From contig NZ_KB889965.1 of the NCBI RefSeq assembly GCF_000372865.1, forward strand, positions 3,021,450 through 3,085,449: DNA of 64,000 bases, in the 5' to 3' direction. The stretch is from Methylosarcina fibrata AML-C10 (GTDB lineage: Bacteria; Pseudomonadota; Gammaproteobacteria; Methylococcales; Methylomonadaceae). Position numbers and translations under genes: made by a program. The notes beneath the pieces were generated by a model. That model did not search any database, had not been told where the DNA came from, and saw only the letters and a list, made by a program, of their open reading frames with translations. Positions 29,712-61,507 of this stretch are shown piece after piece (the stretch's first letter is position 1; every line of letters starts with the position of its first letter).

Positions 29712-30175
29712 CGTCACGATCCGCTGATAGAACAGTTTTGTCCGTTGGTGAACGTTTAAAAAGACCCCGCTCCCAGGCGCGTCCTTGCATTGCCGGCGGC
29801 CTTTAAGCCGACCGTATCTGCCGGCAAATCGGCACAAACGCAGTCGAAGTTTCGTTCTCCATGAAGCCGTTTTCACGATCAATCGGGAAGGTCGGGTTTC
29901 AGTCAATTAATGACTTAAATTTTTCATGGTATATTACGGGCCACAACCATTCGTTCCTATTGGACCTTAGGCTAAGTTTATGCGAAGTTCGCACCGGACA
30001 AATCATACAGTCGCGTGTTCTCTTGGTAATTATCGTTTCGAAAGGAAGCTTGCAAGGCATAACAATTTGCCCATTGATTTTCCGAACAACGAAAATGGTA
30101 ATTCCATCCGTCAAGTCCCGTTCCGGTCCCGGTCGTTGGATTAAGCACTGATCGAGTAAAAGTAGAGGAATTCCG
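29712..30175. other. Divergent regulatory region between the porin and the sensor kinase genes
   Basis: A 464-base gap with no credible gene. It holds dyad box copy 1 and its -10 hexamer for the porin direction, and must also hold the promoter of the kinase-regulator operon on the plus strand. I could not define that second promoter. Confidence 0.6.
29931..29976 (-). promoter_or_regulatory. Dyad-box promoter, copy 1 (toward the OprB porin)
   Basis: The box occupies 29957-29976. Read toward the porin gene it is CTTAGCCTAAGGTCCAATAG. A -10-like TAATAT lies at 29936-29931, 20 bases after the box. The orientation and spacing match the five other copies. The leader to the porin ATG would be about 215 bases. 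Confidence 0.6.
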
Positions 30176-32035
30176 TTGAGCTGGCTTACGGTAATCTGGT
30201 CGATGGTCGCGGCATTCTCCCTGACCTTTGCCCTGCTGCATCTTTTCTTCTGGGCCAAGGAAATCAAGCCGCGGGCGAATTTATCCTTTGCGGCGGCCGC
30301 CTTCGCCGCTTCCGTTATCACTATCATGGAACTGATGGCGATGAAGACGGCGTCTCCCGAACAGATGGCGGCCCTTCTCCGCTGGGTCCACCTGCCTGTT
30401 CTCGTGCTGAGCGTGGGAATCATTTACTTCGTCCGCGGCTACCTGGCCTCGGGGCGGTGGTGGCTTGCCGTGACGGCCATCGGTTTGCGTTGTCTGGCGT
30501 TGATTCTGAGTCTGACCACCGGACAGAGCCTGTTTTTTAAGAAAGTCCTCGGCCTTAAGCGTATAACGGTTCTGGACGGCGAAACAGTCTCACTCCCTCT
30601 CGGCTCACTCAATCCGTGGTATTTCGTCGGTCCGCTCAGCGTCCTGGCGCTCGCCGCATTCGTTCTGGACGGCGCCTTCACCTTATGGCGGCGTGGAACA
30701 GACAGCGACCGCCGTCGAGCCGTCCTGTTCAGTGCGACCATTTTCTTCTTCCTGATAACGGCAGTCGGCCATACCTGGCTTGTCAACTCAGGCGCGATCG
30801 ATTCTCCCTATATCGCCGGCTTTTCCTTCGTGCCCATTCTTCTCGCGATGTTCTATGAGTTAAGCTGCGACATGCTGCATTCCGTGCAGCTTACCGACCA
30901 GTTGCGCTTGAGCGAAGCCGAATTGCGCAACAACAAGCAGCGGATGAAATTGGCGGCAAGAGCTGCGGATCTCAGGTTGTGGGAATGGGACATCGTGCGC
31001 GATCGCATCTGGAGCACCGATGGAATTCGAAGCCTGTACGGTCTTCTCCCCTACCAGGAAATCGGCCTGGATCATTTTCTGAACATGCTTTATGAAGAAG
31101 ACCGCGAACGGGTCCGGGGTGAAATAGCCCGAGCGCTCGCCAATAACGGCCATTACGAAAGCGAGTACCGCATCCGGATACCGGAAGGGCGATTACACTG
31201 GTTCAACTCCAGAGGCCGCGTCGAGTTCGGCGAAAATCATCAACCGCTCCGAATGCTGGGCGTCACCATCAACATTACCCGGCGCAAACAGGCAGAACTC
31301 GAGGCACAGCAGCTACGTCACGAAATGACCCACCTTTCGCGCGCCCTGCTGCTGGGCGAACTGTCCGGTTCGCTGGCGCACGAACTGAATCAGCCGTTGA
31401 CGTCCATCCTCAGCAACGCCCAGGCCGCGCAACGCTTTCTTGCCCGCGACCCGGCCGATCTGGCCGAAGTCCGGAATGTTCTCACCGACATCGTCGAGGA
31501 AGACCGGCGCGCCGCGGAGATCATCCGCCGCCTGCGCGCGCTGCTCAAGAAGGGCGAGGCTCAACGATCGGCCATCGATTTGAATAAAACGGTGCACGAC
31601 GTTCTGAAGCTTGTGCACAGCGACCTGGTGAATCACACGACGACCGTCCATCTCGCTCTCGATCCGACGCTTCCCTCCGTTCTGGCCGACCGCATACAAA
31701 TCCAGCAAGTGCTGCTCAACCTGGTCATGAACGCCTGCAAAGCAATGATTCAAACCGACGTGAAAGAACGTTGGCTGCTCATCGCCACGACCTGGAACAA
31801 CGCAGACAAAATCCATGTCTCCGTTGCCGACCAAGGACCGGGCATTCCCGCTGAAGACAGAAAAACCGTCTTTACGCCGTTTTTTACCACCAAGGCGAAC
31901 GGCATGGGCTTGGGGCTCTCCATTTGCCGCACCCTCATTGCCGCTCAAGGCGGAACCATCTGGGCCACGCAGAATCTTCCTCACGGCACCGTCTTTCACT
32001 TCACGCTGCCGATTTTTCCGGAAAAAAAGGCATGA
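30176..32035 (+). CDS. Membrane PAS sensor histidine kinase (FixL/TodS-like class)
   Basis: A 619-residue kinase. The first 240 residues contain about seven hydrophobic helices. Next comes a PAS fold (LRLWEWDIVRDRIWS...YRIRIPEGRLHWFNSRGRV). The phosphoacceptor His is in SLAHELNQPLTSILSNAQA, and the ATPase domain follows with NLVMNACKA, DQGPGIP and GMGLGLSICRTLI. The start is a TTG with AGAGGA 7 bases before it. The stop overlaps the ATG of the response regulator by 4 bases, so the two form one signalling pair. The stimulus is unknown: the 7-helix input is unlike FixL and no haem site is evident. Confidence 0.9.
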   Translation: MSWLTVIWSMVAAFSLTFALLHLFFWAKEIKPRANLSFAAAAFAASVITIMELMAMKTASPEQMAALLRWVHLPVLVLSVGIIYFVRGYLASGRWWLAVTAIGLRCLALILSLTTGQSLFFKKVLGLKRITVLDGETVSLPLGSLNPWYFVGPLSVLALAAFVLDGAFTLWRRGTDSDRRRAVLFSATIFFFLITAVGHTWLVNSGAIDSPYIAGFSFVPILLAMFYELSCDMLHSVQLTDQLRLSEAELRNNKQRMKLAARAADLRLWEWDIVRDRIWSTDGIRSLYGLLPYQEIGLDHFLNMLYEEDRERVRGEIARALANNGHYESEYRIRIPEGRLHWFNSRGRVEFGENHQPLRMLGVTINITRRKQAELEAQQLRHEMTHLSRALLLGELSGSLAHELNQPLTSILSNAQAAQRFLARDPADLAEVRNVLTDIVEEDRRAAEIIRRLRALLKKGEAQRSAIDLNKTVHDVLKLVHSDLVNHTTTVHLALDPTLPSVLADRIQIQQVLLNLVMNACKAMIQTDVKERWLLIATTWNNADKIHVSVADQGPGIPAEDRKTVFTPFFTTKANGMGLGLSICRTLIAAQGGTIWATQNLPHGTVFHFTLPIFPEKKA

Positions 32036-32661
32036 AACCATCCGTTCCCACCGTCTTTGTCGTCGACGACGATTTCCTCATTTTGAAAGCTCTGACCCGT
32101 CTTTTCCGCTCCGTGGATATGGAGGCCGCCCCTTTCGCCTCGCCTAGGGAATTCCTTGACCAATTCGACCCCGGCGCACCCGGCTGCCTGGTGCTCGACC
32201 TCGAAATGCCGGGCTTCGGCGGCATCGAGCTGCAACAGGAACTGGCGGCTCTGGGCAGTGAATTACCGGTGATCTTTCTCACCGGTCACGGCAGTATTCC
32301 GGCCAGCGTACAAGCGATGAAACAAGGCGCCGTCGATTTTCTGACCAAACCGGTGCATGACGGCGACTTGCTTGAAGCGGTCCGGGCCGCCCTCGAAAAG
32401 GACCGTATGAACCGAAGGGCGCGCAACGAACTGGCCGAGATCCGGGAAAAACTGGCCCTGCTCACCCCGCGTGAACGGGAAGTGCTGAGCCATGTGGTTT
32501 CCGGCAGGCTCAACAAACAAATCGCCGCGGATCTTGGCACCGTCGAAAAAACGATCAAAGTCCACCGCGCCCATTTGATGAGCAAACTGGCGGTGCGCAC
32601 GGTGGCCGACCTGGTGCGTCTGGCGGAGCGCGCCGGCATTACGCCGGCTCACAAGAAGTAG
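32032..32661 (+). CDS. FixJ-type response regulator (receiver plus LuxR helix-turn-helix)
   Basis: A 209-residue transcription factor. The receiver has the acidic pocket VVDDD, the phospho-Asp in LVLDLEMPGFGG, FLTGHGSIP and a conserved Lys in FLTKPV. After a short linker comes a LuxR/FixJ helix-turn-helix (LTPREREVLSHVVSG...IAADLGTVEKTIKVHRAHLM). The open frame starts earlier, but the ATG at 32032 gives the standard N-terminus and overlaps the kinase stop. Regulators of this class activate by binding dyads centred near -40. The six dyad boxes in this window are therefore candidate targets, which is inference. Confidence 0.92.
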   Translation: MKPSVPTVFVVDDDFLILKALTRLFRSVDMEAAPFASPREFLDQFDPGAPGCLVLDLEMPGFGGIELQQELAALGSELPVIFLTGHGSIPASVQAMKQGAVDFLTKPVHDGDLLEAVRAALEKDRMNRRARNELAEIREKLALLTPREREVLSHVVSGRLNKQIAADLGTVEKTIKVHRAHLMSKLAVRTVADLVRLAERAGITPAHKK

Positions 32662-32684
32662 CAAACTGAAAGCAGGAAGCCTCC

Positions 32685-32719: not shown

Positions 32720-33739
32720 TTATTTGAAAGCATTGCGCAAGTTCGTCAGCCTGTCGACGATTGCCTTTTTCATTTGCTCTCGCCCGATCGCGTGCTTGAG
32801 GCTGCTGCCCATGCCGGCCACCTGGTCGGTAAAATTACGGTTCGCGTAGAAAATCAGCGAGCCGCTCCGGTAAGGCAGGCATGCGATGCTGAGCTGATTG
32901 GAGTTATAGGAATGGCCCACGTAAAACTGGCGGGACAGAATCACCTCGCCCATGTTCCCGGCGCTCATGATGACCCGATGCCCCAGAATGGCCGTGGGCC
33001 GCCCTTCCACCTTGCGGTTAAGCCAGAAAAACCGATCTTCGGCCCCTGCGGGCAACGCCGCCGGATAGTTGAGCCAGGCCCGGTAAAGCTCGGGAAAGTA
33101 ACGCGCCAGCACCTTGCCGGCCTTGGCCGCGTCCCTAAGTTCCGCCGCCGGATCGGCTTCGGTGCCGTTGCCCCGGTCATAGGCCGGGATTCCTTTCAAA
33201 CCGTTTTTGCGATAACCGGCCCAACGATCGAACAGAATCTTCCGATAGGCTGGCGCGGCCGCATCCGGTTTCCCGCCTCCGGCCTGCCGAAGGCTCTGGA
33301 ATTCTTCAAACGACAGATTGAATTGGCTTCCGGGCTTGGCCTCCAGAAAATCCCGGGCATCCTCATCCGATTTGAAAGCAAAGCCTTTGAACGCGTCCGC
33401 CGTTGCCTGATCCGGGAGCGTGCCTTGCGCGATCATATCGCCGTCGACCGTGGCCAGGCCTTTTTTACTGATGAACCGGATAATTTTGGACGGCGCAGCC
33501 GGCAGATACATGACCACGCCTGCCGCCAACTCGTTTTCTTTATCCTCCGCGACCTCGAAGGAAACGGTTTGCCCCTGCTCCAGACCGGCCAGTTCATTCT
33601 GTCCGATACCGAGTATCTTTCCTAATTCCTCCGTGTCCGGAAGCTCGGCGGCATGAAGCTCGATAACGCCGATCAGTCCCAGCGCAAGGGCGGCGCTTCG
33701 CCATTTTTTCGATACAGCGGTATGATTTGGATTGGGCAT
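32720..33739 (-). CDS. Exported protein of unknown function
   Basis: A 339-residue protein with an N-terminal signal peptide (hydrophobic core about residues 15-29, likely cut after HAA). I do not recognise the rest. It has several acidic and aromatic segments, such as DRWAGYRKNGLKGIPAYDRGNG and HSYNSNQLSIACLPYRSG, and no lipobox. It begins 9 bases after the preceding gene on the same strand (a SpoIIAA-like protein), so they are probably co-transcribed. It belongs to the cluster of envelope/stress genes around the two-component system. Confidence 0.75.
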   Translation of the reverse strand: MPNPNHTAVSKKWRSAALALGLIGVIELHAAELPDTEELGKILGIGQNELAGLEQGQTVSFEVAEDKENELAAGVVMYLPAAPSKIIRFISKKGLATVDGDMIAQGTLPDQATADAFKGFAFKSDEDARDFLEAKPGSQFNLSFEEFQSLRQAGGGKPDAAAPAYRKILFDRWAGYRKNGLKGIPAYDRGNGTEADPAAELRDAAKAGKVLARYFPELYRAWLNYPAALPAGAEDRFFWLNRKVEGRPTAILGHRVIMSAGNMGEVILSRQFYVGHSYNSNQLSIACLPYRSGSLIFYANRNFTDQVAGMGSSLKHAIGREQMKKAIVDRLTNLRNAFK

Positions 33740-33748
33740 GTTCTTAAT

Positions 33749-34135
33749 CTATTCAAGAAAAAGGGACTGAACGCTGCCTTCGGCTAACCAGACTTTCGCC
33801 TCGGCAAGCCGGGAGGCCGGAAAGAACTCGATAGCCGTTTTCCGTATCGGTTTTCCCATAAACATCAACGCGTCGTCTTTCCATTTCTCGTCCCCGACCA
33901 TGGCGATCCTGACGCGTTGCAGCTCGTCCTCCGATAAAAAGAACGTATCTTCCCAGCCGGGTTCCCGGCTCCAGCCCTGAAATCCGTCCAGCTCGATCAA
34001 TATCCGGAACCGGCCGAACCGTTCCAGACTCGACTCGCCCAGGCGTTGAAGCTTGTGAAAGTCGCCGACGGTAAGCTGCCCGCCGATTCGGATCCAGTGC
34101 TCGCTGTCAAGCGTTTTAATAGATTCAATGGTCAT
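33749..34135 (-). CDS. SpoIIAA-like (STAS-fold) protein
   Basis: A 128-residue protein resembling the SpoIIAA-like family (PF11964). It has WIRIGGQLTVGDFHKL at the N-terminus, FRILIELDGFQGWSREPGWED, and KWKDDALMFMGKPIRKTAIEFFPASRLAEAKVWL at the end. Family members have a STAS/CRAL-TRIO-like fold and often accompany stress genes. The open frame extends to 34447, but only the ATG at 34135 gives the family start. It is followed by the exported protein gene. Confidence 0.8.
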   Translation of the reverse strand: MTIESIKTLDSEHWIRIGGQLTVGDFHKLQRLGESSLERFGRFRILIELDGFQGWSREPGWEDTFFLSEDELQRVRIAMVGDEKWKDDALMFMGKPIRKTAIEFFPASRLAEAKVWLAEGSVQSLFLE

Positions 34136-34386
34136 CGCGGAATCTCTTGATTGATGAATGACAAAGGAGCAAAGCAGGCTTACTGGCGAAATCGCGGCAA
34201 GCGCCTCCTCCGGCTCCGCCGGTTTAACGGCGCAAGAAAAATCAACAGCTTGAAAGGCGGAAACCGGCTTGCACCCAGGGTCAATTTTCGGTAAAGCAAG
34301 CGGTTCATATACATCCTTCGCTAAGGATCGGGACGGGATGAGAGCGATGAAACATGCCCTCGTTCCGTTTCCGTCAACGCACTTCA

Positions 34387-35109
34387 CTAAGGGGTCGCCG
34401 CTCCGGTAGTCCATGAAGACAAACGTTCCGCGGTTTTCTCGCACCATTCGTCAATGGCGTGTTCGGCGTCGCCCCACTGCCATTGAAATCCGGTCGTGAA
34501 ACTGCCGCCGCCGATGCGCTTATCGGCAACCGCAGCCAACAAATCGCCAGAAACCGCATCGGTGATTTTTGCTTCCGCTTGAGCGCCTCCGACAAAAGGA
34601 AAGGTGCCCGAAGCCAGATACTTGAGATTGGCCAGCATGTGCGCTTGAGGAACGATCATCGATACGCTGCGCAGCACCGGCGTGGCCGTTTCGGCATCGG
34701 TCATCGCCACGGTCAATTTCATCGTTCCGGGAGCCGGATGATCGACGATTTCAAATTTCTTGCCGAGCTGCTCTCTGAGCTGTTGAGAAAAATAATTAAT
34801 CAGCATTTGCTGGTCGGCAGCCGAAACCGACGTGGAAGAACCGCCCCAAAAAGTCACCGGCTCGATCATGACCTTGCTGTAGCGGGTCCATTGTGCGGCC
34901 GGATTGATATAACGCAGGCTCGCCTGATCCTTACCGCCGGGGGTCAGTTGTCCGCAGACGTCGCTCAAAAGGCCGCAATTGGCCGAGGTCTGATCAATAG
35001 GCGCTTTCTGCGTCGTCGTACACGCATTCAACAGAACGGCGAAAGCCATCGCCGAAAAAGGAGCCCAGGCTGTCATTCCGAATTTTTCGGCAGTGTTATC
35101 ATTCTTCAT
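34387..35109 (-). CDS. DUF3313-family lipoprotein
   Basis: A 240-residue probable outer membrane lipoprotein with lipobox LLNAC. The pattern after it (YINPAAQWTRYSKVMIEPVTFWGG, YFSQQLREQLGKKFEIVDHPAPGTMKLTVAMTDAE, and ITDAVSGDLLAAVADKR) is that of the DUF3313 family. These proteins are of unknown function and frequent in environmental proteobacteria. It lies 70 bases after the orphan receiver gene on the same strand, so it may be in its transcript. Confidence 0.8.
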   Translation of the reverse strand: MKNDNTAEKFGMTAWAPFSAMAFAVLLNACTTTQKAPIDQTSANCGLLSDVCGQLTPGGKDQASLRYINPAAQWTRYSKVMIEPVTFWGGSSTSVSAADQQMLINYFSQQLREQLGKKFEIVDHPAPGTMKLTVAMTDAETATPVLRSVSMIVPQAHMLANLKYLASGTFPFVGGAQAEAKITDAVSGDLLAAVADKRIGGGSFTTGFQWQWGDAEHAIDEWCEKTAERLSSWTTGAATP

Positions 35110-35178: not shown

Positions 35179-35562
35179 TTACGGTTCAATCGGACGGATC
35201 GCCTTATCGATGGCGTCCAGCAATGCCTCGTCTTCCACGGGTTTCCGCAAAAATGCGGCAATGCCCCGGCTGACCGCGGCTTGATGGATTTCCTCGCGGT
35301 CGTCTCCGGTGATAACGATCACCGGCAGTTTCCGGTCGGACAGCGCCAGCCGATCCAGCACCGCAAGACCGTTCATCGGCATCATGTTCAGATCCAGCAC
35401 CAGGCAGTCCGGTGTGCCGTTTTCCAGAGACCGCAGGAAATCGACCCCAGTCGCAAAGGTTTTCGCGGCAAGTCCGGCGGAACGCAACAGCCGTTCCAAC
35501 CCCTTCAAGATCGTTTCTTCATCGTCAACGATGGCGATCACTGTCTTCCCACTGTTCGTCAT
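35179..35562 (-). CDS. Single-domain response regulator (receiver only)
   Basis: A 127-residue receiver of the FixJ type with no output domain: acidic pocket IVDDEE, phospho-Asp in LVLDLNMMPMNG, VITGDDRE and Lys in FLRKPVEDE. It may act as a phosphate sink or a connector for the nearby kinase at 30176-32035, or for the hybrid kinase at 7458-9977; this is inference. Dyad-box promoter copy 2 lies immediately upstream. Its -10 hexamer ends 6 bases before the ATG, which would give a leaderless mRNA. Confidence 0.9.
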   Translation of the reverse strand: MTNSGKTVIAIVDDEETILKGLERLLRSAGLAAKTFATGVDFLRSLENGTPDCLVLDLNMMPMNGLAVLDRLALSDRKLPVIVITGDDREEIHQAAVSRGIAAFLRKPVEDEALLDAIDKAIRPIEP

Positions 35563-35568: not shown

Positions 35569-35614
35569 ACTTTATCGATTTCAGCCCGGCGGCGCTATTG
35601 GACCTTAGCCTAAT
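35569..35614 (-). promoter_or_regulatory. Dyad-box promoter, copy 2 (receiver gene)
   Basis: The box at 35595-35614 reads ATTAGGCTAAGGTCCAATAG toward the receiver gene. A -10-like TAAAGT at 35574-35569 follows after 20 bases. The start codon comes only 6 bases after the hexamer. This is the shortest distance among the six copies, and it makes promoter function here especially plausible. Confidence 0.65.
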
Positions 35615-36050: not shown

Positions 36051-38078
36051 CTAAAGCAGCTTTTCTCCTTCGTCGTCACGACCCTGTTGCCGATACAGAT
36101 CGGCGAAATTGACGTAGGCGCCGATCAAGAGCGGATCGAGTTCGAGCGCCCGGCGATAGGCCGCCGTCGCGGCATCGATCCGGCCCTGACGCAACAGAAA
36201 ATTGCCTTCGTTGACATTTTCCTGGGGCCAATCGGCATTCAGCGCTAGGGCCTCCCGGTATTCCCGGCTCGCTTTATTCCGGGCTTCCCGCAGGGCCGAC
36301 GGCAGCAAGTCGTCGGACACATCGGCCAGAATGCGCGCCGCTTCGATGCGAACGCCACGGATGGGATCGGACAGCAGCGGGCTCGCCGCCTCGGTGCGGA
36401 AGGCCGGCTCGAACCTTTCGGCAAGGCCCAGCGCGGCCACACGGACAGTGGGGTCGATATCTTGCAATAGCTGCCGCGCCTCGTCGATGAATTCGGGGCG
36501 CAGGCCGGGCTCTGCCAGCGCCGCCGCGGTCGCCCGAATCACGGCAGGAATCATCGGGTCTTGAGCAAGATCGAGCAATGCGGGGACTGCCCCGGTCCCC
36601 TCCGTAACGCCCGCTTGCAGCACCGTTCCGTAATGCGGGCGTTTGCGCCAGGAGGATCCGTACCATCGGTCCAGCGCGGCAGCCGCCCATTCGGGCTTGC
36701 GGTCCTGATGACACTCGGTGCAGGCGTTCGGGCTGCCCAATCGGCTCGACAGGTCCGGCCTGGGCAAACGGAAGCTGTGATCGTGCCGGCCGTCGATGAC
36801 CATGTAATTCCGTTTCGGCGCGTGGCAATCGAGGCATTGGGCGCCTGTCGAGCCTGCCTTGTGGAAATGATGCCGGCCGGTATCGAAGGCGGCCGCCTGA
36901 TGGCAGCGCGTGCACAAGGCATTGCCTTCGGCGCGCAGTTTCAGCGCGTGGGGCTCATGGCAATCCAGGCAGGTCACGCCTTTCGAGTACATCCTGCTCT
37001 GGCGGAACGAGCCCCAGGTGTAATCCTCCTCGCGCTGCTGGCCGTCGGCATAATAGGCCGGCTGCATCAACAGCGCCGGACGATGCGTCTCCTCCAGAGG
37101 CCGGCCGGGCAAGCCGCCTTCGGCCAGCGTCGAGCGGCGCGCATGACAGGCCCAGCAGACATTCATCAGGGTATCGCCGGCCGGCCGGTCGCGCTGCGCG
37201 AACCGGGCGTCCGGAGCCGGAAATCGCCAGGCCTCCCGCCATCGGCTCTCGAGCTTCACCACAAGCCCTTTGTCGTCATTCGGGGCCGGCGCCTTCCCCT
37301 GTCCGGCCCAGTCGACATGGCGCGAAGCGGGGCCATGGCACGCCTCGCAGGACACATTCAAGGCGCTGAAGGTGGTTCGGTACATATCGGTCGTCCGGTC
37401 GTAGCCTTTTTTAAGCCCGGTCGAGTGGCATTCGGCGCATTGCATGTTCCAGTTCTGATAGCGCCCGGTCCAGTGCAGTGGATCGCCGGCATCCATTTTT
37501 TCTCCGGGATAAAGAGAAAACCAGCGCTGTCCGCCTTCGGACTTCGGACGACTGTCCCAGGCGATGCCAAGCGCCTGATAGCGTCCTCCGGGAAACTCGA
37601 TCAGATATTGTTGCAGCGGGGTGACGCCGAACGTGTATCTGATCTGATAATCGGCCGGCTTGCCGTCAGGCCCGCCGGTGCGCACCCAATATTTGCCGTC
37701 GCGCTTGAAAAAAACGGATTCCACACCGAAGTGCTTGAATTTCACCTCATCGAAATGGCCGAGCACCGTCTCGCCGGCCGCTTCCTGCATCGCCAGAGCA
37801 TGGTGCGAGCCGCGCCATGTTTCAACCTCGTTCCGGTGGCAATCTCGGCAGGCCTCCGCGCCGACATAGCCCGGCTCTCCTGCCGGCGGCACCGATTTCG
37901 TCCTGACGATCGCCGAAGCGGGTCCTGCCGGCTGCCCGGCATAAAACCATACTCCGGTTAATGCCGCGATCAGGACGAAAGCGGGCAGAATGCGCCAACG
38001 GCGCTTCCTTGCGGTCCGTGTCCGAGACGGCAACGGAACCGCGGTCCGGGCTGTTCTGGGCGTCTTACGAAGGTTCAT
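36051..38078 (-). CDS. Octaheme c-type cytochrome with HEAT/TPR-like tail (truncated by TAG)
   Basis: A 675-residue membrane-anchored multihaem protein. A basic N-terminus and one hydrophobic helix (about residues 29-47) export it. Eight CxxCH haem sites follow: CRDCH, CAECH, CEACH, CWACH, CLDCH, CTRCH, CLDCH and CTECH. After them come HEAT-like repeats and the start of TPRs. The architecture resembles cytochrome c554/hydroxylamine-oxidoreductase-like proteins fused to TPRs. The TPR domain is cut at a TAG in mid-repeat. Homologous-looking TPR coding continues in frame for 120 codons, so the gene is either damaged or read through. The haem domain is intact. It is in a minus-strand run with MscS and a small membrane protein. 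Confidence 0.88.
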   Translation of the reverse strand: MNLRKTPRTARTAVPLPSRTRTARKRRWRILPAFVLIAALTGVWFYAGQPAGPASAIVRTKSVPPAGEPGYVGAEACRDCHRNEVETWRGSHHALAMQEAAGETVLGHFDEVKFKHFGVESVFFKRDGKYWVRTGGPDGKPADYQIRYTFGVTPLQQYLIEFPGGRYQALGIAWDSRPKSEGGQRWFSLYPGEKMDAGDPLHWTGRYQNWNMQCAECHSTGLKKGYDRTTDMYRTTFSALNVSCEACHGPASRHVDWAGQGKAPAPNDDKGLVVKLESRWREAWRFPAPDARFAQRDRPAGDTLMNVCWACHARRSTLAEGGLPGRPLEETHRPALLMQPAYYADGQQREEDYTWGSFRQSRMYSKGVTCLDCHEPHALKLRAEGNALCTRCHQAAAFDTGRHHFHKAGSTGAQCLDCHAPKRNYMVIDGRHDHSFRLPRPDLSSRLGSPNACTECHQDRKPEWAAAALDRWYGSSWRKRPHYGTVLQAGVTEGTGAVPALLDLAQDPMIPAVIRATAAALAEPGLRPEFIDEARQLLQDIDPTVRVAALGLAERFEPAFRTEAASPLLSDPIRGVRIEAARILADVSDDLLPSALREARNKASREYREALALNADWPQENVNEGNFLLRQGRIDAATAAYRRALELDPLLIGAYVNFADLYRQQGRDDEGEKLL

Positions 38079-38111
38079 CCGGACGATTCAACCCGACTGA
38101 ATAAAAGAAGG

Positions 38112-39695: not shown

Positions 39696-39741
39696 TGTCT
39701 CTCCGCCTCCGCCGAACCGTCCCCGGGCCGTTTCCGATTTT

Positions 39742-40248: not shown

Positions 40249-40366
40249 TGGATCATCTCGTTAACGAAATCCGGCGAAAAATAATGCTTGATGGTTGCTC
40301 TTCCGGGCCAGAATACATCTTCCGGGGCATGAGAAGCAACCGCCGTCACCGGCATCAATCCATTTC

Positions 40367-42045: not shown

Positions 42046-42132
42046 GCTGAACACTCCTCTTGAAACATAAGGTGGGCATTAACATCGGTCTCATCCACCG
42101 GCGGGCTCTTAAGCCGGGGGTTGGGAAATACC

Positions 42133-42179
42133 ATTGTATTTTTGCCCGCGCCGGCCTTGCTATTGGACTTTGGACCAAG
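42133..42179 (-). promoter_or_regulatory. Dyad-box promoter, copy 3 (DUF2092 operon)
   Basis: The box at 42160-42179 reads CTTGGTCCAAAGTCCAATAG toward the DUF2092 gene. A good -10 hexamer TACAAT is at 42138-42133, 21 bases after the box. The leader would be about 80 bases. Confidence 0.7.
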
Positions 42180-46603: not shown

Positions 46604-46615
46604 GGAAATTGCGTT

Positions 46616-54360: not shown

Positions 54361-54984
54361 TTAGCGATTTCCTGCCGCCAGCGTCTGCCGCACCGCAGCC
54401 GCCAATTCGCGGCTCATTCGGTTCAAGCAGTCGTTGAGCGCGGCCACCATGACCTGATAATCCGAGGTCGATGCCGGCGTCCGGTACGAGACCTGCCGGA
54501 CCTGGATTCCGTCCTCGCCGCGAGCGATCCGCCATTGCGCGGTCAGGCCGGCCTGCCCTTCCGGATTCACATGAAATTCCAGGATGGCGACCGATACCCG
54601 AAGCCGGGCCTGGCGGGCGAGCCCGGATCCGTTGGTCGGCACGACGTCGACCGAGGCCAGCCGCGACAGATTCTGCGCCAATACACGGCCGATATTGTCG
54701 TCCAGGGATTCGGCCCAGCGGTTCAGCTCGCTCAATCGGTAAGCGTTCGGGCCGGTCGCGGCCACAATCTGCGGACGATCGACATAGCGCGGAATCTTCA
54801 CGGGACTCAGGGCAACCGCGGGCTTTTCCGAAACGGCCGATGCCTCGCTTTCGCTCTCGCGGAGAGGCTCGAGCAGATAGAACTGTGAAGGCGGCGTCGC
54901 TCCGCCGATGCATCCGGTCAAAGAGCCGAGCAAACCGGCCCACAGCGGAATCCAAACGAAACGGTTTGCACGCATGATCAACAT
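54361..54984 (-). CDS. PqiC-like ABC-type transport auxiliary lipoprotein
   Basis: A 207-residue outer membrane lipoprotein (lipobox LTGC) of the PqiC/ABC-type transport auxiliary family (PF03886). It has SQFYLLEPL after the Cys, then LSPVKIPRYVDRPQIVAATGPNAYRLSELNRWAESLDDNIGRVLAQNLSRL, the canonical core. In such systems it receives or anchors MCE-protein tunnels at the outer membrane. It starts 3 bases after the MlaD-like gene, with AAGGAG inside that gene's end. Confidence 0.92.
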   Translation of the reverse strand: MLIMRANRFVWIPLWAGLLGSLTGCIGGATPPSQFYLLEPLRESESEASAVSEKPAVALSPVKIPRYVDRPQIVAATGPNAYRLSELNRWAESLDDNIGRVLAQNLSRLASVDVVPTNGSGLARQARLRVSVAILEFHVNPEGQAGLTAQWRIARGEDGIQVRQVSYRTPASTSDYQVMVAALNDCLNRMSRELAAAVRQTLAAGNR

Positions 54985-54987
54985 CTT

Positions 54988-56013
54988 CTAATTCTCCTTG
55001 CCGGAAATCAACGACTCCGGATGGCGTTCCAAATAATCGGTCAACCTCTCAATCGAACGCGAAGCATCTCTCAGCGCTTCCAGCGTTTCATTCAAAGCCG
55101 ATTCCGGCCCGATCGCCTCATTGACGTTCGCCATGGATTCATCCGCTCTGTTCAAGGCGAGAGTCGCGGCCTTCAAGGTCTGATCGGTGGACGCCAAAAC
55201 AGGCTTGATGTCGCTATGGATGTCCTGAACCATCGCTCGGGAATCCTGCATCAACAGATTGGTATTCCGGATGGCCGTGTTGGTATCCTTGAGCATCGGC
55301 TCAAGATTCCGGTTCAGAGTCGTCACCGTTTTGTCCATTTCTTCCAGGGTCTTGGCCAGGGCGGCCTTGGATTTTTTGACGTCTTCGGAAGCCAGGAGAT
55401 TTTTAATTTCCTTCAGGCTCTCCGACAAATCCAGAACGATTTGATCCAGCGGCAATTCGCGCAGTTTCTTCGCCACTTCCTCGGCGGTGTTGCGAAGCTC
55501 GTCGGTGGTCTTCGGAATGCCGGGAAACTCAACGATGCCTTTGTAATTCAGATTCACGAACAACGGCGGCTTGTCCGGATGCAGGTCGATGTCGACGTAC
55601 AGCAGGCCGGTCAACAGGCTTTGTGTTTCCAGGCGGGCGCGGAATCCGGCTTTCACCAGATCGTCGCGGTTCTTCTCCTGCTGCCCGTGCGTCAGCGCCG
55701 TCGGAAATTTAACTCCGCCGGTACCGGTAAAAGAATTTCGGTCGATCTCGACCACGACCGGTTTATAAATTTTGAGCTTGACCGGGTCGATTTGTATCGA
55801 AACTTCGATGACTTCTCCGATTTTGACACCCTGCATTTTGACCGGTGCACCGATGTCCAGACCGTTCAGCGAGGTATCGAAAAAAATCACGAACCGGGCT
55901 TTGTCGGTTTTTAACAATTGCCCGCCGCCGAACATCAGCAAGCCGGCCACCAGCAGCGTCAGAGCGCCGACGGTAAAGCCGCCTATGGCCACAGGACTGA
56001 TGGGTTTACTCAT
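54988..56013 (-). CDS. MlaD/MCE-domain lipid-binding protein
   Basis: A 341-residue MCE protein with an N-terminal membrane helix (VAIGGFTVGALTLLVAGLLMFGG). The MCE domain follows (FVIFFDTSLNGLDIGAPVKMQGVKIGEVIEV, GLLYVDIDLHPD), then a long helical C-terminal part rich in Leu, Asn and Asp that could form a tunnel or coiled barrel. It binds lipid for transport between the membranes. Its ATG overlaps the end of the ATPase gene by 4 bases. Confidence 0.93.
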   Translation of the reverse strand: MSKPISPVAIGGFTVGALTLLVAGLLMFGGGQLLKTDKARFVIFFDTSLNGLDIGAPVKMQGVKIGEVIEVSIQIDPVKLKIYKPVVVEIDRNSFTGTGGVKFPTALTHGQQEKNRDDLVKAGFRARLETQSLLTGLLYVDIDLHPDKPPLFVNLNYKGIVEFPGIPKTTDELRNTAEEVAKKLRELPLDQIVLDLSESLKEIKNLLASEDVKKSKAALAKTLEEMDKTVTTLNRNLEPMLKDTNTAIRNTNLLMQDSRAMVQDIHSDIKPVLASTDQTLKAATLALNRADESMANVNEAIGPESALNETLEALRDASRSIERLTDYLERHPESLISGKEN

Positions 56014-56798
56014 AAGTTTTGCCGCTCCGTTTCCGTCTGATTGCTCGCACGGCCTTCGCCTCGAGTTAGAAATTGAATGATTTTCGGGTTGTCGGATTCA
56101 GCCAGAAGCGTTTTGGGCGAACCGGTCGCCAGCATCGTTTTGGTCTCCGGATCCAGAAACACCGAATTGGTGCCGATCGCAAAGATGCTCGCCAGTTCGT
56201 GAGTCACGACCGCAATCGTCGTGCCCAGCGTATCGCGCAGGCTGATGATCAGATCGTCCAAAAGCCTGGCGCTGACCGGATCGAGTCCGGCCGACGGCTC
56301 GTCGAAAAACAGGATTTCCGGGTCCAGCGCCATCGCTCGCGCCAAGCCCGCGCGCTTTTGCATGCCTCCGCTGATCTCGGAAGGATAATACCCTTCGAAG
56401 CCGGCCAAGCCGACCAGCGCCAGCTTGTAGGAAACGACGTCGGCGATTTCTCCCCTGCTGAAATCGGTAAACTCTCCAAGCGGCAAGGCAATGTTTTCGG
56501 CCAGCGTCAGCGAACTGAACAAGGCCCCGGACTGATACAGGACGCCGATGCGCCGCATCATGTTCACGCGCGCTTCGGGGTCGGCATGCCAGAAACTTTG
56601 CCGTCCATAAAAAACATCGCCTCGGGCGGGCTGCTGCAAGCCGATCAGATGCCTCAGCAGCGTGCTCTTGCCGCAGCCGCTTCCGCCCATGATGATGAAC
56701 ACGTCGCCCCGGTTGATGGTGAAGTTCAGATCGCGCTGAATCAAAAAGTCGCCGTAAGCCATGGTCAGATCGGTTACCGTGATATGGGGCGTGGCCAT
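56010..56798 (-). CDS. MlaF-like ABC transporter ATP-binding protein
   Basis: A 262-residue ATPase: Walker A GGSGCGKSTLLRHLIG, Q-loop region VLYQSGALFSSLT, signature SGGMQKRAGLARAMALDP, Walker B EILFFDEPSAGLDP and H-loop VTHE. Closest in pattern to MlaF. It powers lipid movement with the MlaE-like permease upstream and the MlaD-like protein downstream. The gap to the permease gene is 18 bases. Confidence 0.94.
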   Translation of the reverse strand: MATPHITVTDLTMAYGDFLIQRDLNFTINRGDVFIIMGGSGCGKSTLLRHLIGLQQPARGDVFYGRQSFWHADPEARVNMMRRIGVLYQSGALFSSLTLAENIALPLGEFTDFSRGEIADVVSYKLALVGLAGFEGYYPSEISGGMQKRAGLARAMALDPEILFFDEPSAGLDPVSARLLDDLIISLRDTLGTTIAVVTHELASIFAIGTNSVFLDPETKTMLATGSPKTLLAESDNPKIIQFLTRGEGRASNQTETERQNL

Positions 56799-56816
56799 GC
56801 GCTCTCCCTGCCGTCT

Positions 56817-57977
56817 CTAAATGCCGAGCCGGTTGCAGATCAGGGTGATGATCGAATCGGCCACCACGATGTAGACGATGCTATTGACGACCGCGGCCGT
56901 GGCGGCGTCGCCGACCGCCGAAGCGCTGCGTCCGCACTGCATGCCGCGCATGCAGCCGGCCGTCGCGATCAGCACGGCGAACACCAGGCTTTTAAACAAG
57001 CCGATGCCGAAATCGGGCAAATGCACCGACTTGCGGGTTTCGTTGACGTACTGAACCAGCGAAACGTCGAAGGCGCTGATCGTGACCATCGCTCCGCCCA
57101 GGATGCCCATCAGATCCGCGTAAAGGCAGAGCAAGGGCAGCATCAGGATCAGCGCCAGCATTCTCGGCATGACCAGAAACTCCATCGGCGAAATGCCCAT
57201 GGTTTTGAGCGCATCGATCTCGCTGTTGACGTTCATCGTCCCGAGTTGCGCGGCGTACGCGGCGTCGGTGCGGCCGGACATGATCACCGCGGTCATCAAG
57301 GCGCCCATCTCGCGCACCGTACCCAGTCCGACCAGGTCGGCGATAAAAATCTGCGCGCCGAACATCGCCAGTTGCACCGCGCCGACAAAAGCCAGAATCA
57401 GGCCCACCAGCAAACTGATCAGCGTCACGATCGCCAGAGCCCCGGGCCCTGCATCCTGGATGCACAACATCAAATCGTGCAGGCGAAACCTGGCCCTGCC
57501 GCGCAACATGGCGACGCTCGCCAGCACCGTCTCGCCGATAAAGCCGATCAGTCCCCGGGCGTCGGCCAGCGCATTCAACACCGCCTTGCCCAGTTGCGCC
57601 AACATCGGCGGTTTTTGCGCGCTGCGCCGGGCGCCGGCCCTTTCCGGCACCGCGCGCGCCAGCCGGAGCAGGCCCTGAACGCCTGGCGGCAGGCCGGAGA
57701 CGTCGGCTTCGACGGCGTTGGCCCGGCATTCGTCAAGAATTTTCAGAAGATAGGTCGGCAGGCGGCTGTCCCATTGGCCGAGCTCGTCCGCATTCAGACG
57801 GATACGGCTGAAAGAACCGAAACTCTTGAGGCTTTCGAGCAGGGTTTCCGCCGGTTTTATCCGGGCGCCCTGCACCCAGTGGCCTTTCAGGCGAATCAGC
57901 AAGGCCGAGTCATCGAGACGCACGAGTTCGACCTCGCCCGATAAGTCCTGCTCGTCCGCAGCCGTCTTCGCTTTCAT
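56817..57977 (-). CDS. MlaE-like permease with N-terminal STAS domain
   Basis: A 386-residue protein. The first 100 residues form a STAS-like domain (GEVELVRLDDSALLIRLKGHWVQG). The rest is an MlaE permease: LSLLVGLILAFVGAVQLAMFGAQIFIADLVGLGTVREMGALMTAVIMSGRTDAAYAAQLGTMNVNSEIDALKTMGISPMEFLVMPR. STAS fused to MlaE replaces the separate MlaB found in E. coli. The open frame extends to 58028, but the ATG at 57977 fits better. It is followed by MlaF-, MlaD- and PqiC-like genes. Confidence 0.93.
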   Translation of the reverse strand: MKAKTAADEQDLSGEVELVRLDDSALLIRLKGHWVQGARIKPAETLLESLKSFGSFSRIRLNADELGQWDSRLPTYLLKILDECRANAVEADVSGLPPGVQGLLRLARAVPERAGARRSAQKPPMLAQLGKAVLNALADARGLIGFIGETVLASVAMLRGRARFRLHDLMLCIQDAGPGALAIVTLISLLVGLILAFVGAVQLAMFGAQIFIADLVGLGTVREMGALMTAVIMSGRTDAAYAAQLGTMNVNSEIDALKTMGISPMEFLVMPRMLALILMLPLLCLYADLMGILGGAMVTISAFDVSLVQYVNETRKSVHLPDFGIGLFKSLVFAVLIATAGCMRGMQCGRSASAVGDAATAAVVNSIVYIVVADSIITLICNRLGI

Positions 57978-57994
57978 GAAAGTTTCATTCTCAT

Positions 57995-58465
57995 CTATTG
58001 AACGGTATAGCCCCGACCCGTCAGACACGCATTCAAGGCGCGGTTGTAGTTAACGGCGGCCTCGTTGGGCGCCGCGGACGCCGCTTTGTCGGCGTCCCGT
58101 TGCGCGAAGCCGCGCCTTAAGCCGCCGGCGGCCGCGCCGATGGCCGCGCCTTTACCGGCATCGCCGGCAATCGCGCCGATCGCGGCTCCCGCGGCGGCGC
58201 CGCGCGCTCCGCCTCTCAACAACTCTTTGCCCTTGCGTTCTTGCGGCTGGCTGGGTTGGGAAGCGGAAGCGCCGGTGCTGGGATCGAAGCCGCTCTGCTG
58301 GACGGCCCAGGTATGGCATTCAAAACGGTCTTGAGCCATCTGCTGCGACGATTGCCCTTTCGCCGGATAGACGATCGGATTTTGAGCAAACACCGACAGC
58401 GGCAGAACCAAAGCCGCGATCGACAGGGGCCAAAGATTTTTCAACTGTCTTGTCCGGGTTTTCAT
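57995..58465 (-). CDS. Glycine-zipper exported protein
   Basis: A 156-residue exported protein with a signal peptide (cut near VFA) and a conserved MAQDRFECHTWAVQQSGFDP segment. The glycine-zipper stretch is GGARGAAAGAAIGAIAGDAGKGAAIGAAAGG, and the end has one more Cys, in YNRALNACLTGRGYTV. Gly-zipper proteins insert into membranes as helical oligomers. It lies 17 bases before the MlaE-like gene and opens that part of the operon. Confidence 0.85.
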   Translation of the reverse strand: MKTRTRQLKNLWPLSIAALVLPLSVFAQNPIVYPAKGQSSQQMAQDRFECHTWAVQQSGFDPSTGASASQPSQPQERKGKELLRGGARGAAAGAAIGAIAGDAGKGAAIGAAAGGLRRGFAQRDADKAASAAPNEAAVNYNRALNACLTGRGYTVQ

Positions 58466-58546
58466 GATACTCTCTCTTCAATAATGAGTTTAAATTTTTC
58501 AATCGAAACCGCTCAATCCAGAGCACGTTTCGCTATTACCGCCGAC

Positions 58547-59974
58547 TCACTCGACTCTTGTTACCGCCGGCGGCACCCAGCGCCCGTCCAGCACCTCGGC
58601 TTTCGGCGCATACAGGCGCATGGTCACGCCCAGCGTTCCCTTGCCCGGCGAAGGCAGCCAGTTGGATTCCTTGTCGGCTCCCGGAGAGTCGTGCCGGATA
58701 TAGAGATCGAGCGAGCCGTCGGCGTTGAATTTCAATGCGTCGCGATCGCCGATGGCGAAGCGGTTCAGCGGATTGGCGACCTGAAAGCCGTCCCCATCGT
58801 ATAGAGTAACCGACCAGAAAGCATCAACCGGCGGCAGTTCTTCCTTCTTGAAATGAAGCCGATACCGACTCCCTCCAACCAGCATTTTGCCTCCGGCATC
58901 GGCCAAGGCCAATGGATAAACGGCATCCTCGGGTTGATTCGCCCCGAGCCCCACCATGGCGACGATCGCGCGTTTCAGGTAATAATTGCCGTAGACGCCC
59001 ATCGTATCGGTATTCATCTGCCAGCCGTTGACCACGCGCGCCAGGGTCGGCGCCTTTTCCTTCATCCACTTCAAGCCGTCCGCCGCGGCGCGCTCCAGCC
59101 CCGCCTTGACGGCGGTCGGGATCCTGTTCCAATCGAAGCGTGGTCCGGGTTCAAGACCGATCCGCCGCATGCGCTCGACCATCGACCAATCGGTGACGTG
59201 GGGCGGGTTGTGCTTCATCAGGTCCATCCCCAGGCTGAAATATTGGCCGGCCGGCATCGTATTCACCTGCACCAGCGGCGGCGTCTTCGTATCCACGCCC
59301 GGATCGGCCGCGGCCTTGGCCTTCATCGGCCGGGGCTTTTTCCTCCATCGGGAAAGCGGTGTGATCCGGTATCCGTCCTGCACCTTGTGCACGGCCTCGT
59401 AGTCTTTGGAACCGTTGGTTTGCGTGCGGCCGATGACCCAGACGTAGGCTGTGGGTGCGTCGATGCGCCGGATGCCTTTGGGCAGTTGGCCTTTCCACCC
59501 TTGCGGCACGACCGCGAAATCTGCGGCGGCCGTGCCGCTGGTCCGTTTGCCCGGCACCGCGAACACGTCGCTCCACAGGTCCAGCATCGGCAGCAGATAA
59601 TAGCGTCCGGCCGTATCCGGCGCGGAGACGATTTGCGGTTCTTCGGTCAGATCCAGCCAGGCGCTGGAATAGAGCGTGTCGAAATTTGGGCGCACCACTT
59701 CCCGAAAATCCGCAGCCGGGAACGCACGCATATGGTGGAAGACGTTCATCGGCCCCATGCCGGCTTTCTCGCCGGGTTCCTGATGGATGGCGACGCGGCG
59801 GGTCACTTCCATCGAGATCAAGGGATAAAGATACACATAAGCCTCCAGTCCGATCTCGTAGGCTTCCTGCTCGGTCGCTTTTTCGGCCGCCAGCGGGGCG
59901 CCAGTCGCCACCCCGATTGCCAGCGCCAGGGACAACAGAGTTTCGACTAAACCTCTCCGAAAATGAATTGTCAT
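58547..59974 (-). CDS. DUF1254/DUF1214 domain exported protein
   Basis: A 475-residue exported protein. The DUF1254 part has AYEIGLEAYVYLYPLISMEVTRR, MNVFHHMRAFPAADFREVVRPNFDTLYSSAWLDL and TAYVWVIGRTQTNG. The DUF1214 part has YPLALADAGGKMLVGGSRYRLHFKKEELPPVDAFWSVTLYDGDGF and a final LPSPGKGTLGVTMRLYAPK. The family is widespread and lacks a settled function. The ATG at 59974 gives a signal peptide. Confidence 0.93.
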   Translation of the reverse strand: MTIHFRRGLVETLLSLALAIGVATGAPLAAEKATEQEAYEIGLEAYVYLYPLISMEVTRRVAIHQEPGEKAGMGPMNVFHHMRAFPAADFREVVRPNFDTLYSSAWLDLTEEPQIVSAPDTAGRYYLLPMLDLWSDVFAVPGKRTSGTAAADFAVVPQGWKGQLPKGIRRIDAPTAYVWVIGRTQTNGSKDYEAVHKVQDGYRITPLSRWRKKPRPMKAKAAADPGVDTKTPPLVQVNTMPAGQYFSLGMDLMKHNPPHVTDWSMVERMRRIGLEPGPRFDWNRIPTAVKAGLERAAADGLKWMKEKAPTLARVVNGWQMNTDTMGVYGNYYLKRAIVAMVGLGANQPEDAVYPLALADAGGKMLVGGSRYRLHFKKEELPPVDAFWSVTLYDGDGFQVANPLNRFAIGDRDALKFNADGSLDLYIRHDSPGADKESNWLPSPGKGTLGVTMRLYAPKAEVLDGRWVPPAVTRVE

Positions 59975-60013
59975 AAGCAATCGTCCAGAATCTTAAAAAA
60001 TTTGCTTCGATCG

Positions 60014-60598
60014 TTAATCGGGATGAATGCGGGTAATCTTGGAGCCTTGGATGCCGAGTCCCGCCATTAATCCTTTTTGGTCGAAGATAAAGGCATAGAC
60101 GTTGTGCTTCGCGGTCGTCGTGGTGATCGATTTGGCGAGGCCGGCGTCGACGACGACAATGCTGGGCCCGACGCCGAGTTCCCAACCGCGGCTGCTGTCG
60201 AGATACTTCATCGTTTCGTCCGACAGGAAAAACAGCGCATATCCGTAAGACTGCACCCCGGCCTGCAACCCGTAAGACGCCGCGATGCTGTTGTAATAGC
60301 CGGCGGTCCGGCCCCTGACCCGCAACGCGCCGCCCCGTCCGTATTGCCCACCGAACACGAAACCGGCTTTGACGATGGTCGGAAACACCAGAATGCCTTT
60401 CGCCCGAGTAGCCAGCTTTTTAGCCTCCGGCGTAGTCGCATAAAGAGTCTGCAAAGCCGCATCGACGTTCCGGTCGATTTCGGCGGCCGTTCCCGAAATG
60501 CCGGGATTGCCGCCCACCGATTGACAACCTGCAAGGGCCAGCAGGCTCATCAGTAAAACGGTTAACCCGGTTTTTTTTAACCTGTCTCGATTTGTCAT
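60014..60598 (-). CDS. SYLF-domain (YSC84-like) lipoprotein
   Basis: A 194-residue lipoprotein (lipobox LALAGC) with a SYLF/YSC84 domain: AKGILVFPTIVKAGFVFGGQYGRGGALRV, AASYGLQAGVQSYGYALFFLSDETMKYL, VGPSIVVVDAGLA and VYAFIFDQKGLMAGLGIQGSKITRI. SYLF domains bind lipids or phosphoinositides in eukaryotes, and the bacterial role is unknown. The ATG at 60598 is preferred over 60637 because it yields the lipoprotein signal. It lies 39 bases upstream of the DUF1254 gene. Confidence 0.9.
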   Translation of the reverse strand: MTNRDRLKKTGLTVLLMSLLALAGCQSVGGNPGISGTAAEIDRNVDAALQTLYATTPEAKKLATRAKGILVFPTIVKAGFVFGGQYGRGGALRVRGRTAGYYNSIAASYGLQAGVQSYGYALFFLSDETMKYLDSSRGWELGVGPSIVVVDAGLAKSITTTTAKHNVYAFIFDQKGLMAGLGIQGSKITRIHPD

Positions 60599-60744
60599 AC
60601 GCACTGGTTGCCTGACCGTTCGGAATTGATAATCCATGCCGTTCCGGTATCGGGTTTGAATGGATGCAAACCGGGGATCCGGTCGGGCGAATTCTTTCGG
60701 ACCGATTCCCGACTTGTCTCATTCAAACCGGCACCGGATGCCGG

Positions 60745-61182
60745 CTATTTTTTCAAATTCAAATCCTTCAAAGCCTGATTGCAGCGCCCGCTGATTTTTT
60801 TCTCGTTGTCTTCGAGGCAGGCCAATAATCTTCCTTCGCCGGCTTCGACCGAGGAACAGTATTGTTCGAGATCGTCGCCGCATTCGTTGGCCGCATAGGA
60901 AAGCGCCGCCACCGCTCGTTCCAGTTGCACTGCCGAATCGTACAGCGCATACTCGCAGCGGCCCGACAGTTTGTCGCCACGAGCATAGATACAAGCGAGG
61001 ATGCGCCCTGCGCCGGGCGTGACGTCCTTGCAATAAGCCTCCAGTTCGGTTTGGCAACCCTGCAAAAAAGTCTCCAGGGGGCCCTGGCCGGACGGCGCGG
61101 CATCGGCAGCGTTTTTCGGTTGCGGTGCGGCGCAAGCGCCGACTGCTGTACAGATCCAGGCAAGCAAGACAATACGTTTCAT
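60745..61182 (-). CDS. Cysteine-rich repeat (GLG1-type) exported protein
   Basis: A 145-residue exported protein with a signal ending near AVGAC and two tandem Cys-rich repeats of about 40 residues. The first is CQTELEAYC...ACIYARGDKLSGRC and the second CGDDLEQYC...ACLEDNEKKISGRC. Both match the cysteine-rich repeat of eukaryotic Golgi protein GLG1 (PF00839). The ATG at 61182 has CAGGA before it. Dyad-box promoter copy 5 lies about 175-220 bases upstream, which makes this the first gene after the box. Confidence 0.88.
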   Translation of the reverse strand: MKRIVLLAWICTAVGACAAPQPKNAADAAPSGQGPLETFLQGCQTELEAYCKDVTPGAGRILACIYARGDKLSGRCEYALYDSAVQLERAVAALSYAANECGDDLEQYCSSVEAGEGRLLACLEDNEKKISGRCNQALKDLNLKK

Positions 61183-61507
61183 ATCGATCCTGTTCATTTT
61201 CATAATTTGGCTTGAAGACATTGTTTTCTGAAAATAACGGCCGCTTCCCCTGTCTTCCAGTTCCTTCACATCCTCACCGGAAACCTGCGATGCGTGCCAT
61301 AGCCGGTCTATTTCCTGATGCTCGAGGAAGCCCTCCGCTTAAAGGCAGGTGGCCAATGTAACCTTTTCCTCGATACGCAGCTATTGGACTTTAGGCCAAG
61401 TTCATCCGGAAAAGCATCGGATAAAATCGAAGGCACGGGCTCAAAACTTGAATTAAATGAAGGGATCGGCGGTCTCTTGGATCGTCCGGAATTAAAGGCA
61501 TGAACCA
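61183..61507. other. Divergent regulatory region
   Basis: A 325-base gap between the Cys-rich protein gene and the kynureninase-like gene. It contains dyad-box promoter copy 5 (61355-61400) directed to the minus strand. It also holds the start region of the plus-strand gene, for which no clear promoter was seen. No gene lies in it. Confidence 0.55.
61355..61400 (-). promoter_or_regulatory. Dyad-box promoter, copy 5 (Cys-rich protein gene and following genes)
   Basis: The box at 61381-61400 reads CTTGGCCTAAAGTCCAATAG toward the minus-strand genes, identical in all 20 bases to copy 6. A -10-like TACATT at 61360-61355 follows after 20 bases. It would drive the Cys-rich, SYLF, DUF1254, Gly-zipper and MlaEFD/PqiC-like genes if they form one transcript. 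Confidence 0.65.

Follow-up and report, generated by a model that had tools for sequence, protein, structure and literature searches.

The regulon of mycobacterial DosR (DevR) is marked by a box with the consensus TTSGGGACTWWAGTCCCSAA. K179 and K182 of this protein contact DNA bases, according to a study on DosR (PMC5999986), and the operator consensus of EL222, the LOV-HTH (helix-turn-helix) factor of Erythrobacter litoralis, is given as RGNCYWWRGNCY in another paper (PMC10521638). Here we describe six copies of a directional 20-bp box in a 64,000-nucleotide stretch of Methylosarcina fibrata AML-C10 (contig NZ_KB889965.1; hereafter the window, to which all positions refer unless stated otherwise). 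We propose, with a probability of roughly 0.86, that the six boxes would be operators of a two-component system encoded in the same gene cluster, the FixJ-like response regulator (RR) of which would act as a class II activator.

All six 20-mers reported in an initial annotation of the window were recovered (Table 1). They stay near a shared consensus, with 2, 4, 2, 3, 0 and 0 mismatches to CTTGGCCTAAAGTCCAATAG in the order of coordinates, and every copy ends in AATAG at its 3' end. The same side of the box always faces a gene, five copies being directed towards minus-strand genes and one towards a plus-strand gene. The boxes are intergenic under the gene set that we chose, and this placement rests on that choice, as some mechanical open reading frames (ORFs) do overlap boxes and were set aside as spurious. 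The pattern exceeds chance: the six boxes are the six best matches in the 4.98-Mb genome (G000; two contigs), and all of them lie within one 32-kb stretch. A whole-genome search with TNGNCYNAAGTCCAATAG at zero or one mismatch returned exactly the six boxes. Two mismatches added four matches elsewhere in the genome, none of them with a -10 hexamer at the proper distance by eye, and three mismatches gave no excess over the reversed control (110 matches versus 261 in all, whole genome); patterns loosened to this extent (two to three mismatches) were swamped by chance, the reversed control being equally frequent or more so. The combination of TCCAATAG, 19-21 arbitrary bases and TANNNT matched eight places, namely the six boxes and two sites with an ill-fitting left half (in one of them, L240, TTGG is two bases out of register), and the reversed pattern matched four. 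The bare palindrome of the half-site TTGGNC was not discriminating, as several permutations were commoner than the real one in the RR loci in a permutation control. Since the bare dyad is not significant, we relied on the full directional box, the -10 hexamer and the co-occurrence with the RR; on sequence grounds, the signal resides in the full directional box together with the -10, not in the bare dyad. As both the TNGNCYNAAGTCCAATAG search at up to one mismatch and the half-box/-10 search lead back to the same six sites, the regulon reads as a local one, consisting of six promoters in 32 kb, and not as genome-wide. The genome carries a gene of the pmoA/amoA family, which is among the grounds for taking the organism as a probable methanotroph.

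No regulator had been assigned to the boxes in the initial annotation; the cluster itself encodes a candidate pair, which supports the assignment of the boxes to this pair. Genes for a histidine kinase and a FixJ-like RR occupy positions 30176-32658, between box 1 and box 2. Both domains of the RR exceed the Pfam cut-offs (Response_reg, 93.8 bits against 30.2; GerE, 60.7 bits against 23.5), and the domain content assigns the protein to the LuxR/FixJ-type response regulators. The best NCBIfam matches were FixJ for the RR and FixL for the kinase. The scores, however, fell far below the curated cut-offs, with 188.3 bits against 255 for the FixJ equivalog (NF006900) and 234 bits against 850 for the FixL oxygen sensor (NF041777; residues 372-615 of the protein on profile positions 241-483), so that the label of FixLJ oxygen sensing was dropped. 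A second FixJ-like RR (40% identity) is encoded elsewhere in the genome (G000:C1:3544929-3545528). In most of the RR loci collected from other genomes, the kinase half adjoins the RR; the N-terminal sensor half of the window type is recognisable in only some of them, and the signal may thus differ between lineages.

The distribution of the box over genomes follows that of the RR. Among 61 relatives, exact TWRGNCYNARGTCCAATAG was found only in G000 (six copies), G001 (two), G022 (one) and G057 (one), which are the four genomes with an RR of at least 57% identity. Matches with one mismatch occurred in G001 and G022, and also singly per contig in G011 (two), G030 and G049, all three without such an RR. 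We then applied the exact pattern TWRGNCYNMRGTCCAATAG to 301 genomes of the order and called the RR at E <= 1e-58. The box was present in 14 genomes and the RR in 25, and 13 genomes had both; this overlap of 13 of 14 has a hypergeometric P of 3.4e-15, or of 6.5e-11 if G000, G001, G022 and G057 are left out. Three further genomes, G228, G229 and G122 (L099, L100 and L097), had boxes that were known before TWRGNCYNMRGTCCAATAG was written, the one in G122 being weaker; with the seven previously seen genomes excluded, seven of the eight box genomes were among the 18 RR genomes of 294 (P = 7e-9). As a control, reversed TWRGNCYNMRGTCCAATAG was found in 6 of the 301 genomes, none of which has the RR. 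The exact box and the RR share a contig in 11 of the 13 genomes that possess both. In a phylum sample of 398 genomes, the box appeared in just one further genome, G500 (the reversed pattern gave five hits). G500 holds the best RR match other than the genome's own, with box and RR 2.5 kb apart and TAGCGT 20 bases past the box.

The RR alignment was also used to scan named genomes for further loci. The best 80 loci among the matches listed belong to Methylococcaceae, Acidobacteriota, Alphaproteobacteria, Verrucomicrobia, Nitrospirota, Desulfuromonadales, Planctomycetes and other bacteria. A matrix built from 14 Methylococcales sites gave 41 hits of at least 13 bits in these 80 loci versus 5 for the reversed matrix, two of the 41 being the G001 seed sites and a few near-palindromes having scored on both strands. 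In several distant phyla, the box lies in the gap between the RR and receiver genes or adjoins the RR. G039 contains box-like sites of 13.8-17.3 bits under the six-site matrix (L093:9629, 15006 and 15517), one of them ahead of a receiver gene of the same family; despite these sites, a search at E <= 1e-40 gave no RR match in this genome.

The recognition helix of the RR offers a further link to the box. In 57 RR loci dereplicated at about 85%, which is the only step by which relatedness was removed, a box of at least 20 bits was present in 16 of the 29 loci with an EKT[IV]K helix and in none of the 28 with other helices (P = 1.7e-6). Leaving out five Methylococcales loci changed the counts to 11 of 24 and 0 of 28 (P = 4e-5). 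The helix is E[IV]TVK in 14 of the 28 RRs without EKT[IV]K. Such an association would be expected if the RR reads the box, and it supports that assignment. When 78 loci were examined for the gap between the RR and receiver genes, the gap opened with GTATG (often GTATGATTTT) in 23 of 35 E[IV]T loci versus none of 15 EKT loci, the 23 being non-independent as these loci (within L115-L170) are mostly from Bradyrhizobium. The GTATG element is a possible alternative operator. In two loci, RRs with an ERT or EHT helix were seen near altered boxes (ATTGCACC and ATTACACC; L155:2802, L163:10611 and 6205), which may hint at a change in specificity.

If a different regulator owned the box, be it another LuxR/FixJ-type RR or a one-component factor like EL222, the kinase-RR pair would merely travel with the cluster. 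The recognition type is indeed common to several HTH families (EL222 and DosR), and the second FixJ-like RR of the genome could be such a regulator. Nevertheless, we consider this explanation unlikely, as box presence tracks the orthologue of the cluster RR over the 301 genomes, strong boxes are missing near RRs with other recognition helices, and the box is found beside the RR, or between it and the receiver gene, in distant phyla.

The arrangement of the promoters bears on how the cluster RR would act. In all six copies, a hexamer resembling a -10 element begins 19-21 bases past the box, always on its ATAG side, in agreement with the initial annotation; the dyad centre, which had been put near -42, would lie near -42 to -45, assuming a transcription start some 7 bases downstream of the hexamer. 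For an outside set we pooled all RR-anchored loci and fetched regions (L081-L175 and L217-L232), from which four exact duplicates were removed, and obtained 49 sites of at least 18 bits, some of them from related genomes. The matrix contained no -10, and the test of position and direction is thus independent of it. A strong -10 was present 19, 20 or 21 bases downstream of 27 of the 49 sites; non-overlapping three-base windows held one in at most 4 of 49, and the upstream side at 19-21 bases in none. With the threshold lowered to 16 bits, the count was 31 of 61 sites, with one on the other side. The recurrence of the directional box with the same -10 spacing near orthologous RRs in other genomes and phyla gives good support to the class II geometry proposed for the window, in which the putative operator covers the place of the -35 element and keeps a fixed distance and direction to the -10. 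In two loci (L098:10736-10770 and L112:2893-2927), we observed tandem overlapping boxes 15 bp apart; a -10-like hexamer, which is weak, follows at the usual distance from the promoter-side copy alone.

An operator that covers the -35 position could also serve a repressor, with the RR blocking RNA polymerase until a signal removes it, and in E. coli a promoter was repressed by means of EL222 operators set within and behind it (PMC10521638). Inspection, however, showed nothing TTGACA-like at the TAG end, at which a -35 hexamer with 17-base spacing would start. Because no good -35 is present at this promoter-side end, activation is preferred to repression; the strong -10 at a fixed distance in 27 of the 49 outside sites, absent on the opposite side, also points to activation. 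Repression by the RR is quite unlikely and less likely than activation. The near-identical 20-mers clustered in 32 kb might also be taken for copies of a dispersed repeat or for an element acting in RNA (terminator or riboswitch), which is very improbable because the flanks are unrelated by eye, the predicted start comes only after the box, which would be outside the RNA, an Rfam search of the window gave no family at threshold (the RNA-element reading was dropped for this reason), and other phyla have the same box at the same distance from a -10.

Several observations speak against activation of the six promoters by the cluster RR. G237 has the box and no RR was detected in it, its box contig being only 6.7 kb long and its genome 94% complete. 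Conversely, 12 of the 25 RR genomes of the order are without the exact box; three of them were fetched (G122, G186 and G078), and all three have weaker boxes. In the phylum sample, 76 of the 398 genomes pass a looser RR profile search, and the exact box is missing from 74 of them; the second FixJ-like RR of the genome itself passes at this threshold as well. The cross-phylum loci were picked via the RR, and hence the nearness of box and RR in them is a biased sample, whereas the whole-genome pattern searches are unbiased. As for the helix, 13 of the 29 loci with an EKT-type RR have no box at a matrix score of at least 20 bits, and a threshold of 16 bits finds the box in 18 of the 29 EKT[IV]K loci and also in 3 of the 28 others. 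A strong -10 at the expected position is missing from 22 of the 49 outside sites. Finally, the targets vary by lineage.

The boxes, their direction and spacing, their co-occurrence with the RR and the link between helix and box are seen in the sequence itself; for the binding, activation, phosphotransfer and feedback that we favour, we infer the following course of events. The membrane histidine kinase would sense a signal and phosphorylate the FixJ-like RR, and a dimer of the latter would bind ATTGGnCYAARGTCCAATAG, its two EKT[IV]K helices reading the palindromic core RGNCYWWRGNCY. With the box in the -35 place, the conserved ATAG on the promoter side and the -10 following after 19-21 bases, the bound RR would activate class II promoters that have no good -35 of their own. 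The local regulon that it would thereby switch on comprises PPK2, an orphan receiver and a number of envelope genes (OprB, DUF2092/MscS/multihaem cytochrome, the lipoprotein and the SYLF-DUF1254-Mla-like operon). Made early, the orphan receiver would probably dampen the kinase as a phosphate sink or a competitor.

Genes behind the boxes elsewhere include those for orphan receivers, sulfatases, FGE-type sulfatase-modifying enzymes, OprB porin, Ysc84/SYLF, DUF3300, DUF3313, aquaporin and an adhesin-like protein, envelope proteins making up many of the targets. The orphan receiver is the most recurrent target over the lineages, with 15 distinct receiver promoters. Taking the first in-frame start codons, as assigned by script, the start codon lies 26-38 bases past the box in 12 of the 15 and 73-171 bases past it in L111, L158 and L163. 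In the 12 close promoters, the -10 at 19-21 bases is strong (at least 4 bits) in five and weaker in seven. With this geometry, the predicted transcription start coincides with the initiation codon or lies only a few bases away from it, and so the receiver mRNA is predicted to be usually leaderless. The same is predicted for the receiver of the window, as the -10 of box 2 ends so shortly before the ATG (Table 1).

It is attractive to speculate that these loci represent a single undescribed module that crosses phyla, composed of a kinase, a FixJ-like RR whose helix reads EKT[IV]K, and, as a fast built-in brake, an orphan receiver expressed from a box-driven leaderless mRNA. Envelope and sulfatase genes specific to lineages would join the module by gaining a box and a -10, and the helix lysine would select the ATTGGnC box against the element found in Bradyrhizobium relatives. 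We regard this wider proposal as tentative, and as somewhat more doubtful than probable.

The genes behind the six boxes are those named in the initial annotation, as judged by ORF and Pfam reading (OprB, receiver, DUF2092, lipoprotein, PPK2 and the Cys-rich/SYLF/DUF1254/Mla-like group). The true start of the OprB ORF is probably an internal ATG ahead of the signal peptide, by eye.

Table 1. Boxes, -10 hexamers and genes of the cluster (positions in the window).
Feature	Position	Strand	Remarks
OprB porin ORF	28329..29906	-	PF04966, E 4e-29
Box 1 -10, TAATAT	29931..29936	-	starts 20 bases past box
Box 1	29957..29976	-	faces OprB porin gene; between oprB and divergent histidine kinase gene
Histidine kinase	30176..32035	+	PAS_3, HisKA, HATPase_c; membrane N-terminal half matches HisKA_7TM below cut-off
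FixJ-like RR	32032..32658	+	receiver and GerE/LuxR HTH; recognition helix VEKTIKVHRAHLM; overlaps kinase end; proposed box binder
DUF3313, SpoIIAA-like and one gene without family	32720..35109	-	behind receiver; probable co-transcription, from spacing
Orphan single-domain receiver	35179..35562	-	Response_reg, E 2e-25
Box 2 -10, TAAAGT	35569..35574	-	20 bases past box; 6 nt ahead of ATG
Box 2	35595..35614	-	faces orphan receiver; start codon 32 nt past box
Probable operon: DUF2092, two genes without family, MscS-type channel, multihaem cytochrome with TPR	36051..42054	-	from spacing
Box 3 -10, TACAAT	42133..42138	-	21 bases past box
Box 3	42160..42179	-	faces DUF2092 gene
Lipoprotein-like ORF	42250..42855	-	no Pfam family; lipoprotein call by eye
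Box 4 -10, TACAAT	42961..42966	-	21 bases past box
Box 4	42988..43007	-	faces small lipoprotein-like gene
Box 5	47504..47523	+	faces PPK2 gene; sole plus-strand copy
Box 5 -10, TAAAAT	47543..47548	+	19 bases past box
Polyphosphate kinase 2	47576..48835	+	PF03976; exceeds TIGR03707 cut-off
Probable operon: Cys-rich protein, Ysc84/SYLF, DUF1254/DUF1214, glycine-zipper, MlaE permease, ABC ATPase (by eye), MlaD, ABC_trans_aux lipoprotein	54361..61269	-	from spacing
Box 6 -10, TACATT	61355..61360	-	20 bases past box
Box 6	61381..61400	-	faces Cys-rich/SYLF/DUF1254/Mla-like operon

Three other features of the window were noticed. A gene for a radical-SAM protein with a SPASM domain (minus strand, 51219-52406) appears to be split over the ORFs 51960-52406 and 51219-51929 and has the look of a broken gene. 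Two small ORFs on the plus strand (46325-46900) resemble a RelE/HigB-HigA toxin-antitoxin pair by eye. Also on the plus strand, at 23310-26651, an AAA ATPase gene stands beside a subtilase gene; their third-position GC of 0.41-0.42 is below that of the regulon genes, and they were possibly acquired.

Genes of unknown function, i.e., those for DUF2092, DUF1254, DUF3313, DUF3300, SYLF and OprB, now have a putative operator, a promoter geometry and a named candidate regulator; they follow the box in relatives among the methanotrophs and, in some cases, outside this group too. Their common trigger can therefore be sought with a reporter. The association between helix and box across phyla constitutes a natural data set for predicting the DNA specificity of LuxR-type proteins, and with the box-driven receiver recurring in this way, feedback by single-domain receivers becomes open to testing.

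The regulon had been put forward as a possibly undescribed one. We found no paper on the regulon or the box in the open-access literature, most subscription journals being outside its scope, which agrees with this part of the proposal; the recognition type, on the other hand, is known, and the regulon is local instead of genome-wide. Among described systems, FixL-FixJ resembles the pair in its NCBIfam matches, and FixJ (5xso) and 1yio (StyR) are the best full-length solved structures for the RR by sequence. It differs in that only the kinase half of FixL was matched, and in that the recognition helix is PRTIEVYR in FixJ and EKTIKVHR here. EL222 shares with the RR a GerE/LuxR HTH with an EKT[VI]K helix and is the best-scoring solved HTH for it. 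Its operator core, RGNCYWWRGNCY, fits six of the six window boxes and 38 of 48 other sites, the latter having been chosen by a similar matrix. EL222 is, however, a light sensor of the one-component type that carries a LOV domain, whereas the regulator in the window is of the two-component receiver-HTH type, and the window box adds the TT/AATAG flanks and the fixed -10. We rejected an identity of the RR with EL222, as its N-terminus is Response_reg and no LOV/PAS family was matched in the RR. DosR, which has a 20-bp box as well, is similar in the core, GGCCTAAAGTCC of the window box resembling GGACTAAAGTCC of a DosR test oligonucleotide. This oligonucleotide, TTGGGGACTAAAGTCCCTAA, has the same core type as the window boxes, and K179 and K182 of DosR would correspond to the two lysines of EKTIK in a register read off the mutagenesis primers of PMC5999986. 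In contrast, N183 of DosR is V in the RR, the DosR half-site is GGGAC, and the similarity in sequence is low overall (1zlk, E = 0.0023 for the HTH). Membership in the DosR regulon was rejected, given that the window half-sites are without GGGAC and DosR is only a remote HTH match. The operator core belongs to the recognition type that was published for EL222, and the DosR site comes close to it. Receiver-GerE regulators with palindromic operators are of a known kind.

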